Shown: piece by piece, positions 9,211-63,748 of the stretch | How the letters are laid out: each line of letters starts with the position of its first letter | Numbering within the stretch: position 1 is the first letter of the stretch | Assembly (NCBI GenBank): GCA_900290255.1 | Contig: OMOD01000024.1 | Location: 34,300-98,299, forward strand | DNA from: Candidatus Sulfotelmatobacter kueseliae | GTDB lineage: Bacteria > Acidobacteriota > Terriglobia > Terriglobales > Acidobacteriaceae | Reading direction: 5' to 3' | DNA: 64,000 nucleotides | Translations under genes and position numbers: made by a program | Notes under the pieces: generated by a model | The model's database searches: none | What the model saw: the letters and a program-made list of their open reading frames with translations, nothing else | Told to the model about the DNA's origin: nothing

Positions 9211-10071
9211 ATGGACATCTACGAACAAATCGTCGAGCTGCGCCGTCAAGGGCGGCGGGGCGCGGTGGCCACGATCGTCAACGTGCGGGGATCGATTCCG
9301 TCGTTCAAGACGGCGAAGATGCTGGTGCGTGACGACGGTTCGATTGTCGGGACCATTGGCGGAGGCTGCGTCGAGGCCGACGTCTGGCAGGCCGCGCGTG
9401 AGGTGATGGAGTCAGAGAAGCCACGTACACTGACGTTCGATCTCAACCAGGATCCGAAGTACGATACTGGGCTGGTTTGCGGCGGGACGCTGGAGGTTTT
9501 CATTGAACCCGTCTTACCTCCAGCATTACTTTATGTGTTCGGCGCAGGTCATGTTGCGTTAAGCGTTTGCCAGACCGCGGCGAGCGCCGGGTTCGACGTA
9601 ATTGTCAGCGATGACCGCTCCTCGTACGCGACCAAAGAGCGCTTCCCGGCGGCTCGCGAAATCTACGCCCTCGATTTCGACGAGGCCATGCAGAAGCTCG
9701 ACCCGGACGAGTCTTCCTACATCGTGATCGTGACCCGCGGACACCGCGACGATATGCGCATCTTGCGCTGGGCGGTGCAGACGCGAGCCCGCTACGTGGG
9801 CATGATCGGATCGAAGCGCAAGGTCATACAGATTTTCAAGACGCTCGAGGAAGAGGGAGTGCCGGCCCAGCTTTTCGAGCGGGTTCACGCGCCGATTGGC
9901 CTTGATATCGGAGCGATCACGCCGGAGGAGATTGCGGTGGCGATTACGGCGGAACTGATTGCGGTGCGCCGCCACGCGACCGGTGCTGTGCCGCACATGA
10001 GCTGGTTCAAGACAGTGCGGGACGTGGCCGAGGCTGCAGACAGAGCGGGCGACGGCGACCGCAACAGCTAA
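9211..10071 (+). CDS. XdhC/CoxI family molybdenum hydroxylase accessory protein
   Basis: ATIVNVRGSIPSFKTAKMLV, GTIGGGCVEADVW, VFGAGHVA, YVGMIGSKRK. Confidence 0.92.
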   Translation: MDIYEQIVELRRQGRRGAVATIVNVRGSIPSFKTAKMLVRDDGSIVGTIGGGCVEADVWQAAREVMESEKPRTLTFDLNQDPKYDTGLVCGGTLEVFIEPVLPPALLYVFGAGHVALSVCQTAASAGFDVIVSDDRSSYATKERFPAAREIYALDFDEAMQKLDPDESSYIVIVTRGHRDDMRILRWAVQTRARYVGMIGSKRKVIQIFKTLEEEGVPAQLFERVHAPIGLDIGAITPEEIAVAITAELIAVRRHATGAVPHMSWFKTVRDVAEAADRAGDGDRNS

Positions 10072-10150
10072 TTTCCGATTTACAATTTCCGATTGCCGAT
10101 TGAAAATCAGTTGGACCAGATTGGCAATCGGAAATCGAAAATCGGAGATT
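10071..10150. repeat. heptad inverted array A: 4 units ATTNCCG-like / loop / 4 units ATCGGAA-like
   Basis: ATTTCCG ATTTACA ATTTCCG ATTGCCG ... ATTGGCA ATCGGAA ATCGAAA ATCGGAG; ATG of next gene at 10153. Confidence 0.9.
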
Positions 10151-10152
10151 CC

Positions 10153-10791
10153 ATGTCCCGTTCCCCGAGCTTCGCAGGAGTGATTCTGGCCGCAGGCGAA
10201 TCCGCGCGCATGGGCACGGACAAGGCTCTTCTGCCCTGGCCACCGCAGGTCGCAGGGCAGCCGGCGTCGAACGACACCTTCCTTTCGGCGGCGATCCGGT
10301 CGCTGACTCTCGCCACCGATTTTGTGACCGTGGTGGTGGGACAGAATGAAGCGGCGCTGGCGCCGCTGGTGTATGCCAGCGGAGCGGCGACGGTCACCAA
10401 TCCTGACCCCAGCCGCGGGCAGTTCAGTTCCCTGCAGGTGGGACTGCACGAAGTGCTCAACCGTGGGCGCGATGCGGCGGTGATTACGCTGGTGGACCGG
10501 CCTCCAGTCGGCGCCACGACGATTGGAATCCTGCGTGCCGCCTTCGAAGCCGCGGAGCCGAACATCTGGGCGGTGGTTCCCGAGTTCTCGGGAGAGCACG
10601 GCCATCCTTATTTGGCCGGCCGCGAATTGATCGAAGCCTTTCTGCAGGCCCCGCCCACGGCCTCGGCACGCGACATCGAACATCGCCTTCAGCAACACAT
10701 TCAGTACGTTACGGTTGGTGATCCGCTCGTCGTCCTGAACGTCAACACTCCGGAGGAGTACGCCGCGTTGCTGGAGAAGACGGCGATCTGA
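10153..10791 (+). CDS. MobA-like NTP transferase (MocA/CoxC-type molybdenum cofactor nucleotidyltransferase)
   Basis: GVILAAGESARMGTDKALLPW; downstream of XdhC-like gene. Start placed at ATG 10153, after the repeat. Confidence 0.87.
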   Translation: MSRSPSFAGVILAAGESARMGTDKALLPWPPQVAGQPASNDTFLSAAIRSLTLATDFVTVVVGQNEAALAPLVYASGAATVTNPDPSRGQFSSLQVGLHEVLNRGRDAAVITLVDRPPVGATTIGILRAAFEAAEPNIWAVVPEFSGEHGHPYLAGRELIEAFLQAPPTASARDIEHRLQQHIQYVTVGDPLVVLNVNTPEEYAALLEKTAI

Positions 10792-10800
10792 TGAACAATT

Positions 10801-10868
10801 TTAGATTGCAGATTTCAGATTTGACCCCAAATCAATCTGCAATCTGAAATCTCAAATCTACAATCTGA
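10801..10868. repeat. heptad inverted array B: TTAGATT GCAGATT TCAGATT / loop / AATCTGC AATCTGA AATCTCA AATCTAC AATCTGA
   Basis: Direct reading; 7-bp period in both arms; arms reverse complementary. Confidence 0.92.
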
Positions 10869-10922
10869 AATGGCTACGGCACCATTGCGCATTCCGGCCT
10901 CGGCACGTTATTGTCGAAGTGC

Positions 10923-11648
10923 ATGGAAATCCGGGCAACGTACCCAACCTACCGCACCCAGCACGACTTTCTGGAATCGGTTCTCCGGCTCTCGCCGCGG
11001 GTGGCGGCGTTCGATTGCGACGGCACGCTATGGTCGAACGACGCCGGGATAACTTTTTTCGAGTGGGAGATCAAGAATGGTGTCGTGTCGGCTGAAGTCG
11101 GCCGGGCCATGCGCGCCCGGTATGCGGAATACGAGGCAGGCAGGGTCAGCGAAGACGAGATTTGCGGTGAGATGGTGACCATGCACAAAGGGCTGCCCTG
11201 TGCGGCGGTGATCGAGGCGGCTTCCGACTTCATGACCCGGTTCTTTCCCGGGTCCATCTTCCCCGAGATGCGCGAGTTGGTCCGGCGCCTCGAGGAGAGT
11301 GGTTGTGAGGTCTGGGTGGTTTCAGCGTCGAACGAATGGGTGATCCGCGCCGGCGTCAAGCCCTTCGGCATAGCCGAGAACCGCATCCTGGCCTCGAAAG
11401 TCGAAGTCGAAGATGGGATCGTGACCGACCGCCTGGTGCGGGTCCCTTCGGGCGTGGGCAAGCCGCAAGCGCTGCGAGAGGTTGTGGGTAAAGATGTGGA
11501 CGCGGCTTTTGGCAATTCGCGCTTTGACACGGAAATGCTGGCGGCGGCCGGACACCCGTTTGTCGTCAATCCAAAGCCGGAACTGGAAGCGACGGCACGC
11601 GAACGCGCATGGCCCATCTACTTTCCGGACGGGACGGCGGGACGATAG
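10923..11648 (+). CDS. HAD superfamily (IB/SerB-like) phosphatase
   Basis: FDCDGTLWSND motif I, VVSASNEWVI motif II, AFGNSRFDTEML motif IV. Confidence 0.85.
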   Translation: MEIRATYPTYRTQHDFLESVLRLSPRVAAFDCDGTLWSNDAGITFFEWEIKNGVVSAEVGRAMRARYAEYEAGRVSEDEICGEMVTMHKGLPCAAVIEAASDFMTRFFPGSIFPEMRELVRRLEESGCEVWVVSASNEWVIRAGVKPFGIAENRILASKVEVEDGIVTDRLVRVPSGVGKPQALREVVGKDVDAAFGNSRFDTEMLAAAGHPFVVNPKPELEATARERAWPIYFPDGTAGR

Positions 11649-11889: not shown

Positions 11890-12249
11890 ATGTATTCCGC
11901 CCAACTGCTCGATCACTTTCAGAATCCGCGCAACGCGGGCGAAATTGCGGCACCTGACGCCATAGCGGAGATTGAGAACCCGGTGTGCGGGGATGTGCTC
12001 CGGCTGACGCTCTCGATCGAAGCGGGACGGGTCAGGGAAATCCGATTTCGGGCGAAAGGATGCGTTGCGGCGATGGCATGCGCCTCTGCGCTGACCGAAC
12101 TGGTGGCCGGAAAGACGGTGGAAGAAGCGCGAAATATGACCCGCGCCAGCTTGACCGCCGCGGTCGGAGGCCTGCCGCAAGGTTCGACTCATGCAGCGCA
12201 GTTGGCTCTGGATGCGCTGGCGGCCGGGTTGCGCCAGCAGGAGCGTTAG
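11890..12249 (+). CDS. NifU/IscU N-terminal-like iron-sulfur cluster scaffold protein
   Basis: YSAQLLDHFQNPRNAGEI, NPVCGDVLRLTL, RAKGCVAAMACASALTELVAGKTVEEA. Confidence 0.9.
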   Translation: MYSAQLLDHFQNPRNAGEIAAPDAIAEIENPVCGDVLRLTLSIEAGRVREIRFRAKGCVAAMACASALTELVAGKTVEEARNMTRASLTAAVGGLPQGSTHAAQLALDALAAGLRQQER

Positions 12250-18150: not shown

Positions 18151-18196
18151 CCCGCCTAGAGAATAACCAACTCGCGGGCGATTCGGAATTAAAATC

Positions 18197-18371
18197 TGAC
18201 GTCGGACTGCGGACCCCGGACCTCAGGCGTCAGACCTCGGACTTCGGACCTCAGACCTCAGGCTTTGGACCAATGCTGAAAACTGGCCGTGTGTCGATCC
18301 GAAGAGCCGCAGACCCAGGTGTAGGTCTTGGGTCCGAGGTCTGAGGTCCGAAGTCCGAAGTCTGACGTTCG
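18197..18371. repeat. heptad inverted array C: about 10 RGACNTC units / loop / 7 AGGTCYG units
   Basis: TGACGTC GGACTGC GGACCCC GGACCTC AGGCGTC AGACCTC GGACTTC GGACCTC AGACCTC ... AGGTCTT GGGTCCG AGGTCTG AGGTCCG AAGTCCG AAGTCTG ACGTTCG. Confidence 0.93.
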
Positions 18372-18392
18372 CCCTTCCGTATAATTCAAGCA

Positions 18393-21567: not shown

Positions 21568-21623
21568 GGCACGATTATCGACCTTCATTGGAGCCTTTGT
21601 CTTTGGTGCAGATGGCGCGGGTT

Positions 21624-21725
21624 AATTGTTGATTGTTGAATGTTGAGTGAGAACCCCGGGGTTTCCAAGATGCTTTGTGCAGCGCGAGCTGTTAATCAAC
21701 AATCATCAATCAGCAATCAACAATT
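21624..21725. repeat. heptad inverted array D: AATTGTT GATTGTT GAATGTT GAGTGAG / loop / AATCAAC AATCATC AATCAGC AATCAAC
   Basis: Direct reading of 21624-21651 and 21694-21721. Confidence 0.9.
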
Positions 21726-21760
21726 CTTCTAAACCTGCGCCGTCCTCCTGCCGATATATC

Positions 21761-21897
21761 TAGAACTGGTTTCATAAATCGTCTTGCGCGCGGCGGGCGC
21801 CAGGCCCTCAGGGCTAAAGCCCAGCGTTTATGCGGAGCCCTTGGCGGCCCGGCTGAAGCCGGGCCCTACCCAAAACCTATTTGTGAAACGAGTTCTA
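21761..21897. mobile_element. MITE-like 137-bp element with 19-bp imperfect terminal inverted repeats
   Basis: TAGAACTGGTTTCATAAAT (21761-21779) versus reverse complement of 21879-21897, TAGAACTCGTTTCACAAAT; a partial inverted copy lies at 30422-30517. Confidence 0.75.
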
Positions 21898-45552: not shown

Positions 45553-45712
45553 TTCTCACCACGGAGTCACGGAGGCACAGAGGGGAAAAATTATCCTCGT
45601 TCGCCGATCTCGTTCGCCTGCTGTCGAAAAACTCCGTTCATCCCCGAGCCCACGTATCCAACAATGCCTTGCCGGGTCTTCTCCGTGTCTCTGTGTCTCC
45701 GTGGTGAGAAGA
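45553..45712. repeat. octad inverted array between pstB and phoU
   Basis: TTCTCACCACGGAGTCACGGAGGCACAGAGG ... TCTCCGTGTCTCTGTGTCTCCGTGGTGAGAA; 8-bp period CACGGAGT CACGGAGG CACAGAGG. Confidence 0.88.
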
Positions 45713-61844: not shown

Positions 61845-62501
61845 ATGAAAGCAGCAGTCGCCAGAAAACCAGTAATACGAATTGCCGTAGTGGAAAGTGA
61901 TCCTTTGCGTTTTGTAGGGTTCCGTGCCCTGTTTGACTCCGAGCCCGAGTTCGAGCTGGTCTCCGCCGCGTTGCCCGAGATCAACACGCTGCAAAACATT
62001 GACCTCATCCTGCTGGGCAACCGCTCCGGGCAGAACCTGTTTGACGTGATGGCCAGTCTGAAAGCCACGCGGCCCGATTTGCGCATCATCGTCACCGGCT
62101 CCGGTATTGACGAAGAAACCATCTTAAAGGCGATTGCTTCCGGGGCCAAGGGATATGTCGATGAGGCCGCCACACCAGCGGAATTCGCGCAGGCGATTCG
62201 CGTGGTGAACCAAGGATCGGTATGGGCGCCGCGGCGCGTGCTGTCCCTGTTCATCGAGAGAGTGTCATCGTCGCCCGGACGGATTTTCCCGGCGGGCCGC
62301 GTCACCTTCACCGACCGCGAGAAGGAAGTGCTGGAAATGCTGGTGGCGGGACGGTCGAACAAGGAAATTGGCGGCCAGTTAGGGATCGAAGAGCGTACGG
62401 TCAAAGCGCACGTCGCCAAGTTGATGCGCAAAGTGGGCGTGCAGAACCGGATTGCCTTGTCGGTTCACGCCATCACACATTCGCTGGTGGCGACCAAGTA
62501 G
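61845..62501 (+). CDS. NarL/LuxR-type regulator with degenerate receiver domain
   Basis: HTH FTDREKEVLEMLVAGRSNKEIGGQLGIEERTVKAHVAKLMRKVGVQNR; receiver IDLILLGNRSGQN where phospho-Asp is expected. Confidence 0.88.
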   Translation: MKAAVARKPVIRIAVVESDPLRFVGFRALFDSEPEFELVSAALPEINTLQNIDLILLGNRSGQNLFDVMASLKATRPDLRIIVTGSGIDEETILKAIASGAKGYVDEAATPAEFAQAIRVVNQGSVWAPRRVLSLFIERVSSSPGRIFPAGRVTFTDREKEVLEMLVAGRSNKEIGGQLGIEERTVKAHVAKLMRKVGVQNRIALSVHAITHSLVATK

Positions 62502-62502
62502 T

Positions 62503-62572
62503 CGCGAGCCCTGAGCCGCGAGTTGCGGAGGGTTTGGCTCGGGACTCGGGACTCGCAACTCGTAACTACGGG
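62503..62572. repeat. heptad inverted array F: GCGAGCC CTGAGCC GCGAGTT / loop / GGCTCGG GACTCGG GACTCGC AACTCGT AACTACG
   Basis: Direct reading; starts 2 bp after the regulator stop codon. Confidence 0.87.
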
Positions 62573-63487: not shown

Positions 63488-63498
63488 GGGGAGCGGGC

Positions 63499-63745
63499 GT
63501 CGGACGTCAGACCTCGGACGTCAGACCTCGGTGATAGAATCCGGGGCGTGCCTGATTTATCCATCCTTGACCCCGAGCGGTAGCTTTGCGGCGGGAAAAC
63601 GCACACGGGCGAGAAACGCATGACCAAGTAGGGTTCGTCTACTAGTAGGACCCCAGACTTCGGACCTTCGAGGTTCAATGGAAGTTTTGGTTCAGCAGAG
63701 GTTTTGAAGTTTGAGATCTGAGGTCTGAGGTCCGACGTCCGATCC
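63499..63745. repeat. heptad arrays G: GTCGGAC GTCAGAC CTCGGAC GTCAGAC CTCGGTG (63499-63533), then second inverted array 63648-63745
   Basis: GGACCCC AGACTTC GGACCTTC ... AGATCTG AGGTCTG AGGTCCG ACGTCCG; next ATG at 63749. Confidence 0.88.
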
Positions 63746-63748
63746 GTG

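Follow-up and report, generated by a model that had tools for sequence, protein, structure and literature searches.

The DNA analyzed here, termed the window, is a stretch of 64,000 nucleotides (C89:34300-98299) from a Candidatus Sulfotelmatobacter kueseliae genome (G000; 5.39 Mb in 198 contigs), whose close relatives are Candidatus Sulfotelmatobacter and other Acidobacteriaceae MAGs. Within it three co-directional genes, encoding an XdhC/CoxI-family protein, a MobA-like nucleotidyltransferase and a HAD-family hydrolase, are separated by arrays of degenerate tandem 7-bp units followed, after a loop, by units complementary to the first; arrays of the same build recur farther along. The genes and arrays are as follows.

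9211-10071, plus strand: XdhC/CoxI-family gene (PF13478, PF02625), its stop codon overlapped by an array
10070-10153, no strand: inverted heptad array, word GATTKNC, arms 10070-10107 (5') and 10117-10153 (3'); found by reading, lag-7 scan and folding
10153-10791, plus strand: MobA-like NTP transferase gene (PF12804), starting at the array end
10795-10872, no strand: inverted heptad array, word AGATTKN, arms 10795-10826 and 10829-10872; between the nucleotidyltransferase and HAD-hydrolase genes
10911-11648, plus strand: HAD-family hydrolase gene (PF12710), downstream of the second array
18194-18377, no strand: inverted heptad array, word RGACYTC, arms 18194-18268 and 18321-18377; flanked by divergently oriented genes
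21617-21728, no strand: inverted heptad array, word GATTGTT, arms 21617-21654 and 21690-21728; found by reading, scan and folding
31756-31841 (31756-31834 in the lag-7 scan), no strand: inverted heptad array, word RGACYTC; just 3' of the AnmK gene stop (gene at 30534-31751)
45559-45704, no strand: inverted octad array, word CACGGAGN, arms 45559-45589 and 45680-45704; found by lag scan, architecture as in the heptad arrays
62500-62570, no strand: degenerate inverted heptad array, word CGAGYYN, 3' arm 62533-62570 and 5' arm starting near 62503; sits at the stop codon of a gene for a LuxR-type regulator
63488-63746, no strand: inverted heptad array with a long loop, word RGACYTC, arms 63488-63531 and 63701-63746; after a Ysc84-domain gene

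The seven heptad loci had been named in a preliminary description, and at all of them an inverted 7-bp array is found both by direct reading and by an unsupervised lag-7 scan; the words given there are likewise borne out, being best written GATTKNC, AGATTKN, RGACYTC (three loci), GATTGTT and CGAGYYN. The octad array had been overlooked. The first array fills the XdhC/CoxI to nucleotidyltransferase junction, overlapping the stop codon of one gene and reaching the start codon of the next; in most relatives this junction is short and holds no array, and in some it holds an array with the same word class or with a different word. A conserved leader lies 3' of the second array and is also present in relatives that lack the array. 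The divergent genes around the 18194-18377 array encode an MgtE-N/CBS protein and a MacB/FtsX permease, and orthologous arrays with an unchanged RGACYTC word occur in two other species (L072 and L121). The array at 63488-63746 has extra or partial units at 63648-63668.

Folded as single-stranded DNA and compared with 200 dinucleotide shuffles per locus, the arrays at 10071, 10801, 21624 and 31757 gave z scores of -5.4, -6.4, -3.4 and -2.7, the first three folding more strongly than 200 of 200 shuffles and the last being matched by one shuffle of 200. Folding proposed as a check on the description thus bears it out at these four loci and only weakly at 62503 (z of -2.1) and in the 63640-63745 half taken alone (-1.3). 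Adjoining the array at 21617 is a GC-rich hairpin at 21799-21871 (AGGGCTAAAGCCCAG ... GGCTGAAGCCGGGCCC), which resembles non-heptad hairpins at ribosomal-protein junctions of relatives. Octads of the form CACAGAGN, related to CACGGAGN, recur in other congeners and in other families, and at C89:13564 of G000 a GATTGTT heptad array is nested inside such an octad pair.

Such arrays are far more frequent than chance would allow. A scan of 388 kb of G000 in 21-base windows, each with at least 17 matches at a given lag, detected 54 regions at lag 7 and 16 at lag 8 versus none in three shuffles; lags 4-6 and 9-11 yielded 0 or 1 region. Over 788 kb of the 5.39-Mb genome, on which the array densities rest, there are 111 lag-7 arms, 82 of them with a reverse-complement partner (a match of at least 16/21 within 250 bp), as against 1 and 0 after dinucleotide shuffling; hence the combined autocorrelation and inverted-repeat search that had been suggested puts the arrays well beyond shuffled sequence. 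At lag 8, 23 of 25 arms are partnered. Control lags 9-13 gave 0-23 arms with 0-2 partnered (14 and 2 at lag 9, 23 and 0 at lag 12), and lag 14 is a harmonic of lag 7. Because the control lags are nearly without partners, inverted pairing belongs to the 7- and 8-bp classes rather than to tandem repeats generally. The 7-bp phase and inverted symmetry described as common to all loci do hold at those named, with the correction that a period-8 class shares the identical architecture. Similar arrays occur sporadically in other families of the class. G000 has an estimated contamination of 8.5%, the relatives are mostly MAGs, and the comparisons are made between species.

A loop separates the two arms of an element, each arm being a tandem run of some 4-10 units of 7 or 8 bp. 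A single degenerate word, with 4-6 fixed and 1-3 free positions, writes both arms, read inwards from each end. The words are not locus-specific, as had been proposed, but form a small, locally clustered vocabulary common to many loci and species: about a dozen recur across loci, in species-specific dialects. Heptad words are GATTKNH (the last base being fixed as C, A or T in each array), RGACYTC, RGCYNNN (with variants TAGCTNC, TCAGCTN, TTRGCTN and GAGCTNC), CAGTKRY and GTCGTTN; octad words are GTTTCARR, GTAATTKN, GATTKNGY and CACRGAGN. Overlapping matches to the pattern GACYTCRGACYTCRGACYTCR number 236 in G000, whereas genome G242 has 89 and most others have none; the GATTKNGY octad pattern has 19 matches in G243, 4 in G238 and none in G000. 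Arrays that share a word are clustered within 5 kb (38 of 101 pairs versus 21.8 expected, p=0.002). Polarity is uniform in G000, where the word stands in the 5' arm and its complement in the 3' arm (82:0 arms); in G209, which belongs to a different family of the class, it is the complement of RGACYTC that sits in the 5' arm, so polarity is a property of the lineage.

Within interior units the core positions are mostly 91-99% conserved, and the remaining positions are free, G/T-only or Y-only; this was determined family by family, each unit being judged without conditioning on itself, in place of an earlier test that pooled all arms and was noisy. Of 170 interior GATT heptads, 97% have G or T at position 5, a pattern that the GATTKNGY octads share. 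Both ends of the GATT family are conserved, as GAATT on the outside and GATTGAAAAC on the inside. An RRYY core common to all words, which had been the impression by eye, was dropped in view of exceptions such as AGTACCT and GTACTCA. Tandem heptad arrays of the ACTATGA and GATGGAC type were also seen in unrelated Thermodesulfobacteriota/Deltaproteobacteria MAGs (L122:205-232, L125:405-457).

Although the two arms of an element are written with one word, they show no coupling at the level of the unit. Partner arms match at 0.818 versus 0.825 for permuted units, and the register obtained from one half of an arm fails to predict the other half (0.414 versus 0.422, p=0.72, 133 halves). Adjacent units, moreover, are no more alike at free positions than in random order, only the array-specific last position being locally uniform. 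Exact inverted duplication, which looked plausible by eye at 10071 (24/28 paired), failed both the unit permutation and the held-out register test. What does exceed its permuted null, in four tested sets, is the length of identical-unit runs shared between loci: 3.00 versus 1.96 (sd 0.22) for GATT in G018, 1.72 versus 1.47 (sd 0.07) for RGCY in G238, 1.72 versus 1.36 (sd 0.09) for RGCY in G243 and 2.08 versus 1.82 (sd 0.10) for GATT in G000. The RGCY and GACYTC families of G000 show no ectopic run sharing, which is weak in that genome overall. The best matches between an array and other loci extend over roughly the length of an arm (median 32 bp). In G018 four arrays (L138:5140-5370; L139:7900-8130 and 11890-12130; L141:9900-10130) have nearly one and the same 3' arm (CAATCTGCAATCTGAAATCNNNAATCTGCAATY), with unrelated loops and different 5' arms. 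Chimeric and half-converted arrays occur among the elements compared, and no near-identical copies of whole elements were found.

Nearly all arrays are intergenic, as judged with a simple codon model and home-made gene calls. In junctions offering 60 bp of slack or more, 40% of arrays are found at most 10 bp from a stop codon, as against 7% expected for arrays placed at random, and the corresponding values for start codons are 10% and 6%. Several junctions are occupied by an array entirely, from stop to start, and some arrays sit between divergent genes. One setting is C147:1-13000 of G000, which, from gene order and protein sequence, we take to be the spc/alpha ribosomal-protein region (rplX, rplE, rpsH, rplF, rplR, rpsE, rpmD, rplO, secY, adk, map, infA, rpsM and others), and most of whose junctions hold arrays. 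Arrays occupy most junctions of the ribosomal-protein operon in 16 congeners, whereas in order-level relatives the junctions are short and hold none; genus-wide, nearly every ribosomal-protein junction bears either an array or another hairpin.

These junctions allow orthologous arrays to be compared. At rplR-rpsE the word is, depending on the species, TAGCTNC, TTRGCTN, GAGCTNC, TCAGCTN or the octad GTAATTTT. Match scores at orthologous junctions average 34-40 between arms of one element but only 16-24 between arms of different species, which implies that the word is concerted across both arms. In the closest array-bearing pair compared, G238 and G243, whose aligned segments are 87-97% identical, the rplN-rplX, rplX-rplE, rplR-rpsE and secY-adk junctions hold GTTTCAAG or RGCY arrays in one species, and in the other they hold octads of the form GATTKNGY, a wholesale replacement by one new word. 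At rplR-rpsE the alignment of the flanking genes extends as far as the stop codon, which itself differs. Other junctions of this pair show an array in one species and none in the other, drift between related words, a single changed arm, or identity. Ribosomal-protein stop codons alternate among TAA, TAG and TGA in congeners alongside turnover of the adjacent array, at rplR-rpsE and at other junctions (L170-L186, L273, L274), which suggests that the array boundary reaches the stop codon. The word at a locus is passed on by descent and drifts in every unit, and in some cases the whole word gives way to another. Because orthologous words change while the arms stay matched, something acts on more than one transposed sequence. 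The preliminary description had ascribed the arrays to a process, or to selection, acting on architecture rather than on one transposed sequence; the general architecture and the matched arms despite a changed word agree with this, but its RNA-structural variant fares badly, as described below. Independent evolution of the arms, named there as the outcome adverse to it, is not seen at the level of the word but is seen for single units.

The arrays belong to a known type. The heptameric repeats of Xanthomonas (GGGAATC) and Nostoc (GGGGA(C/T)T) are degenerate, with fixed and free positions, are about 90% intergenic, lie near the 5' neighboring ORF, are rare between divergent genes and vary between species, and Xanthomonas has 70-75 inverted (convergent) pairs per genome (PMC4692102). 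The Sulfotelmatobacter arrays resemble them in consisting of tandem 7-bp units in which some positions are fixed and others free, in lying mainly between genes, in having words in many dispersed copies and in forming inverted pairs near the 5' neighboring ORF. Unlike them--one G-rich, quadruplex-forming word having been studied per genome--they are built from a dozen mostly non-G-rich words and from octads, are inverted as a rule and show word replacement at orthologous junctions. GGG tracts for G-quadruplexes are absent from the consensus words GATTKNH, RGACYTC, RGCYNNN, CAGTKRY, GTCGTTN and GTTTCARR; the ability to form quadruplexes, however, marks the subset studied in PMC4692102, not heptameric repeats as such. 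A parallel drawn beforehand, with the P6b hairpin of the Nostoc tRNA-Leu(UAA) intron, holds for the motif: P6b consists of complementary degenerate heptads of classes TDNGATT and NNTGAGT, and the two words repeatedly replace each other at one site (PMC4476775), much as complementary degenerate heptads form two arms here with a GATT word nearly equal to TDNGATT. P6b, though, is a single site inside a group I intron, whereas the arrays occupy many sites between protein genes and the window has no Rfam match, and the Xanthomonas GGGAATC arrays (PMC4692102) are the closer parallel.

Marine Beggiatoaceae have about 170 intergenic sets of the heptamer TAACTGA in one genome, some split by related heptamers and some overlapping stop codons (PMC4679880). 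Its reverse complement, rotated, is CAGTTAT, which fits the Sulfotelmatobacter word CAGTKRY; these sets, however, are direct repeats upstream of start codons, with only one inverted case. The STRR heptanucleotides of heterocystous cyanobacteria, as cited in PMC4692102, include several words in one genome (three in Calothrix); they are described as direct tandem repeats, and the inverted two-arm form is absent from the literature examined. Dispersed intergenic palindromes also characterize the REP/RAYT and TIR/TIRYT systems, whose tyrosine transposases are known in Acidobacteria (PMC3733652). The Sulfotelmatobacter arrays are likewise dispersed, intergenic and palindromic, but they alone have a heptad structure, and Y1 genes here are flanked by other repeats. 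The GTAG (or CGTC) tag at the hairpin foot was not seen: GATT arrays end outwardly in GAATT, and the junctions listed share no tag.

Several mechanisms could produce arrays of this kind. In one, replication slippage makes the 7-8-bp tandem units and template switching in the hairpin copies arm onto arm, 7 nt being the length of DNA held by the polymerase and loops of this length evading mismatch repair. The sharp excess at periods 7 and 8 agrees with this, as do a few long near-perfect arrays (C5:14340 in G000; L094) and the heptamer excess in many bacteria together with the idea of a polymerase footprint (Mrazek 2007, cited in PMC4692102 and PMC4679880). Unit duplication, however, predicts that neighboring units should be alike, the opposite of their being no likelier alike than in random order; arm copying predicts unit-by-unit matches that partner arms lack; and the free positions vary with restricted alphabets. 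Since there is neither neighbor-unit likeness nor a held-out register, slippage and arm copying are refuted as a recent process, and this explanation is unlikely as a whole. It is decidedly unlikely, too, that the arrays act as RNA hairpins between cistrons and are under selection because they stabilize or process the mRNA or space translation, in which case any foldable word would suffice. The strong folds, the stop-to-start location with its excess next to stop codons, and the array or other hairpin at nearly all ribosomal-protein junctions of the genus are what such selection would yield. Yet G.U and A.C mismatches in the mRNA sense stand at 120:115, versus 15:2 in the acceptor and T stems of tRNAs from the same genomes (Fisher p=0.004). 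This wobble test was repeated with a second stem finder, the tRNA stems serving as positive control; the first run gave 45:28 (p=0.06) in co-directional junctions of G000 itself, 73:80 in relatives and no bias when pooled. The lack of a G.U excess over A.C implies that RNA pairing is not the driver, which removes the RNA-level form of the structural selection suggested beforehand. Moreover, arrays are found between divergent genes as well, sister species lack individual hairpins, pairing in a fixed register would not hold all units of an arm alike, and a T-run is absent after the arrays (2/34). Intrinsic terminators were accordingly rejected (TTTT within 14 nt in 2 of 34 elements versus 47 of 1209 random intergenic 14-mers), none being found in 9900-11100, as were known RNA families.

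Movement by a transposase of non-autonomous palindromes (MITE- or REP-like), with the words as successive element families, would account for gain and loss at single junctions, for bursts of a single word in one genome and for the conserved ends of the GATT family. Y1_Tnp genes, though present in most genomes examined, are commoner in array-rich ones (Mann-Whitney p=0.005, in a small and phylogenetically confounded sample); yet none of 20 Y1 transposase genes has an inverted heptad array beside it, the inverted repeats that do flank them are unrelated, near-identical whole-element copies are lacking and so is the GTAG tag. Mobilization by RAYT/TIRYT enzymes was therefore rejected, and mobile palindromes in general are a rather unlikely source. 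The repeats that flank the Y1/TIRYT-type genes (L295-L314), such as AAGCGCTGCGCCACCCAAAAGC and GGACAGCCGAGGGCGGCTGTCC, are GC-rich and inverted and make up a second class of dispersed intergenic hairpin in the genus. Binding of a sequence-specific protein that needs a core every 7-8 bp in inverted order, and that leaves free positions unconstrained, would explain core positions mostly 91-99% conserved beside others that are free, G/T-only or Y-only. It is nevertheless very unlikely: each genome has many unrelated words, swapped between sister species, which would call for a dozen co-evolving proteins. If both 3' ends of a break were extended with repeats by templated, telomerase-like synthesis, in the way that DRT10 makes tandem-repeat DNA, the two arms would have one word in common, a fixed polarity and unit orders independent of each other; this suits the observed polarity and the independence of the arms, and a bacterial reverse transcriptase with such a product exists (PMC12632851). 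Hardly any credence can be given to it here, however: no RVT_1 reverse transcriptase was found in array-bearing G018 (99% complete), G242, G238 or G243, and templated synthesis by such an enzyme was set aside.

The explanation tentatively preferred, at less than even confidence, is that the arrays form an intergenic superfamily maintained by DNA-level exchange between arms that share a word, together with gain and loss at junctions. An array would originate in the spacer that follows a stop codon, as a short inverted element. Its arms would then act as independent members of a genome-wide but locally biased pool of arms with the same word, swapping short tracts--a few units, in register and with polarity kept--preferably with nearby arms, by ectopic gene conversion or template switching. 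Such exchange would produce a uniform word in both arms, species dialects and scrambled free positions, and the arms would thereby stay complementary without copying each other and without selection on RNA. Whole elements may be lost and re-inserted at the same tolerant junctions with the word currently active in the genome. In favor of this model count the fixed polarity, the word common to both arms without coupling of their units, the unit runs and arm-length matches shared with other loci, the clustering of same-word arrays, the chimeric and half-converted arrays, the word replacements between G238 and G243 and the lack of a wobble bias. The lack of likeness between neighboring units fits exchange, and also fits selection on the core. 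Against exchange stand the weak ectopic sharing in G000, tracts shorter than homologous recombination usually needs and the fact that no insertion junctions, target duplications or enzyme were identified. Exchange covers existing arms rather than the first arrival of an array where there was none, and by itself it does not account for the restriction of position 5 of the GATT word to G or T. A broader reading is possible but doubtful: that an as yet undescribed DNA-level process in bacteria writes and rewrites intergenic inverted arrays in short degenerate words, gives both arms one word and a fixed polarity without copying one arm from the other, and switches the word at many junctions, also in the ribosomal-protein operon, over no more than the distance between sister species. 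Its products would include the P6b hairpin of trnL as well as the heptamers of Xanthomonas, Nostoc and Beggiatoa.

An intergenic excess of heptamers in bacteria has been on record, free of a mechanism, since at least 2007, polymerase slippage being the usual guess. Because this excess, the inverted arrangement, the closeness to the 5' ORF and word replacement have all been published, the arrays are of a kind already known. New here are a vocabulary of many words and octads in one genome, an inverted architecture that is the rule, the genus-wide occupation of ribosomal-protein junctions, word replacement seen directly between sister species, and the tests that speak against slippage, copying between arms and selection on RNA. 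The literature searched, whose coverage excludes most subscription journals, yielded no earlier report of such arrays in Acidobacteria.

One genus supplies hundreds of arrays, orthologous junctions in the most conserved operon and sister species caught in the midst of replacement. The data argue against unit slippage, arm-to-arm copying and selection on RNA structure, so that the other options become testable. In practice, the arrays may misguide the annotation of repeats, terminators or small RNAs. If the process is general, it would shape operon spacing, stop-codon context and intergenic evolution across phyla.
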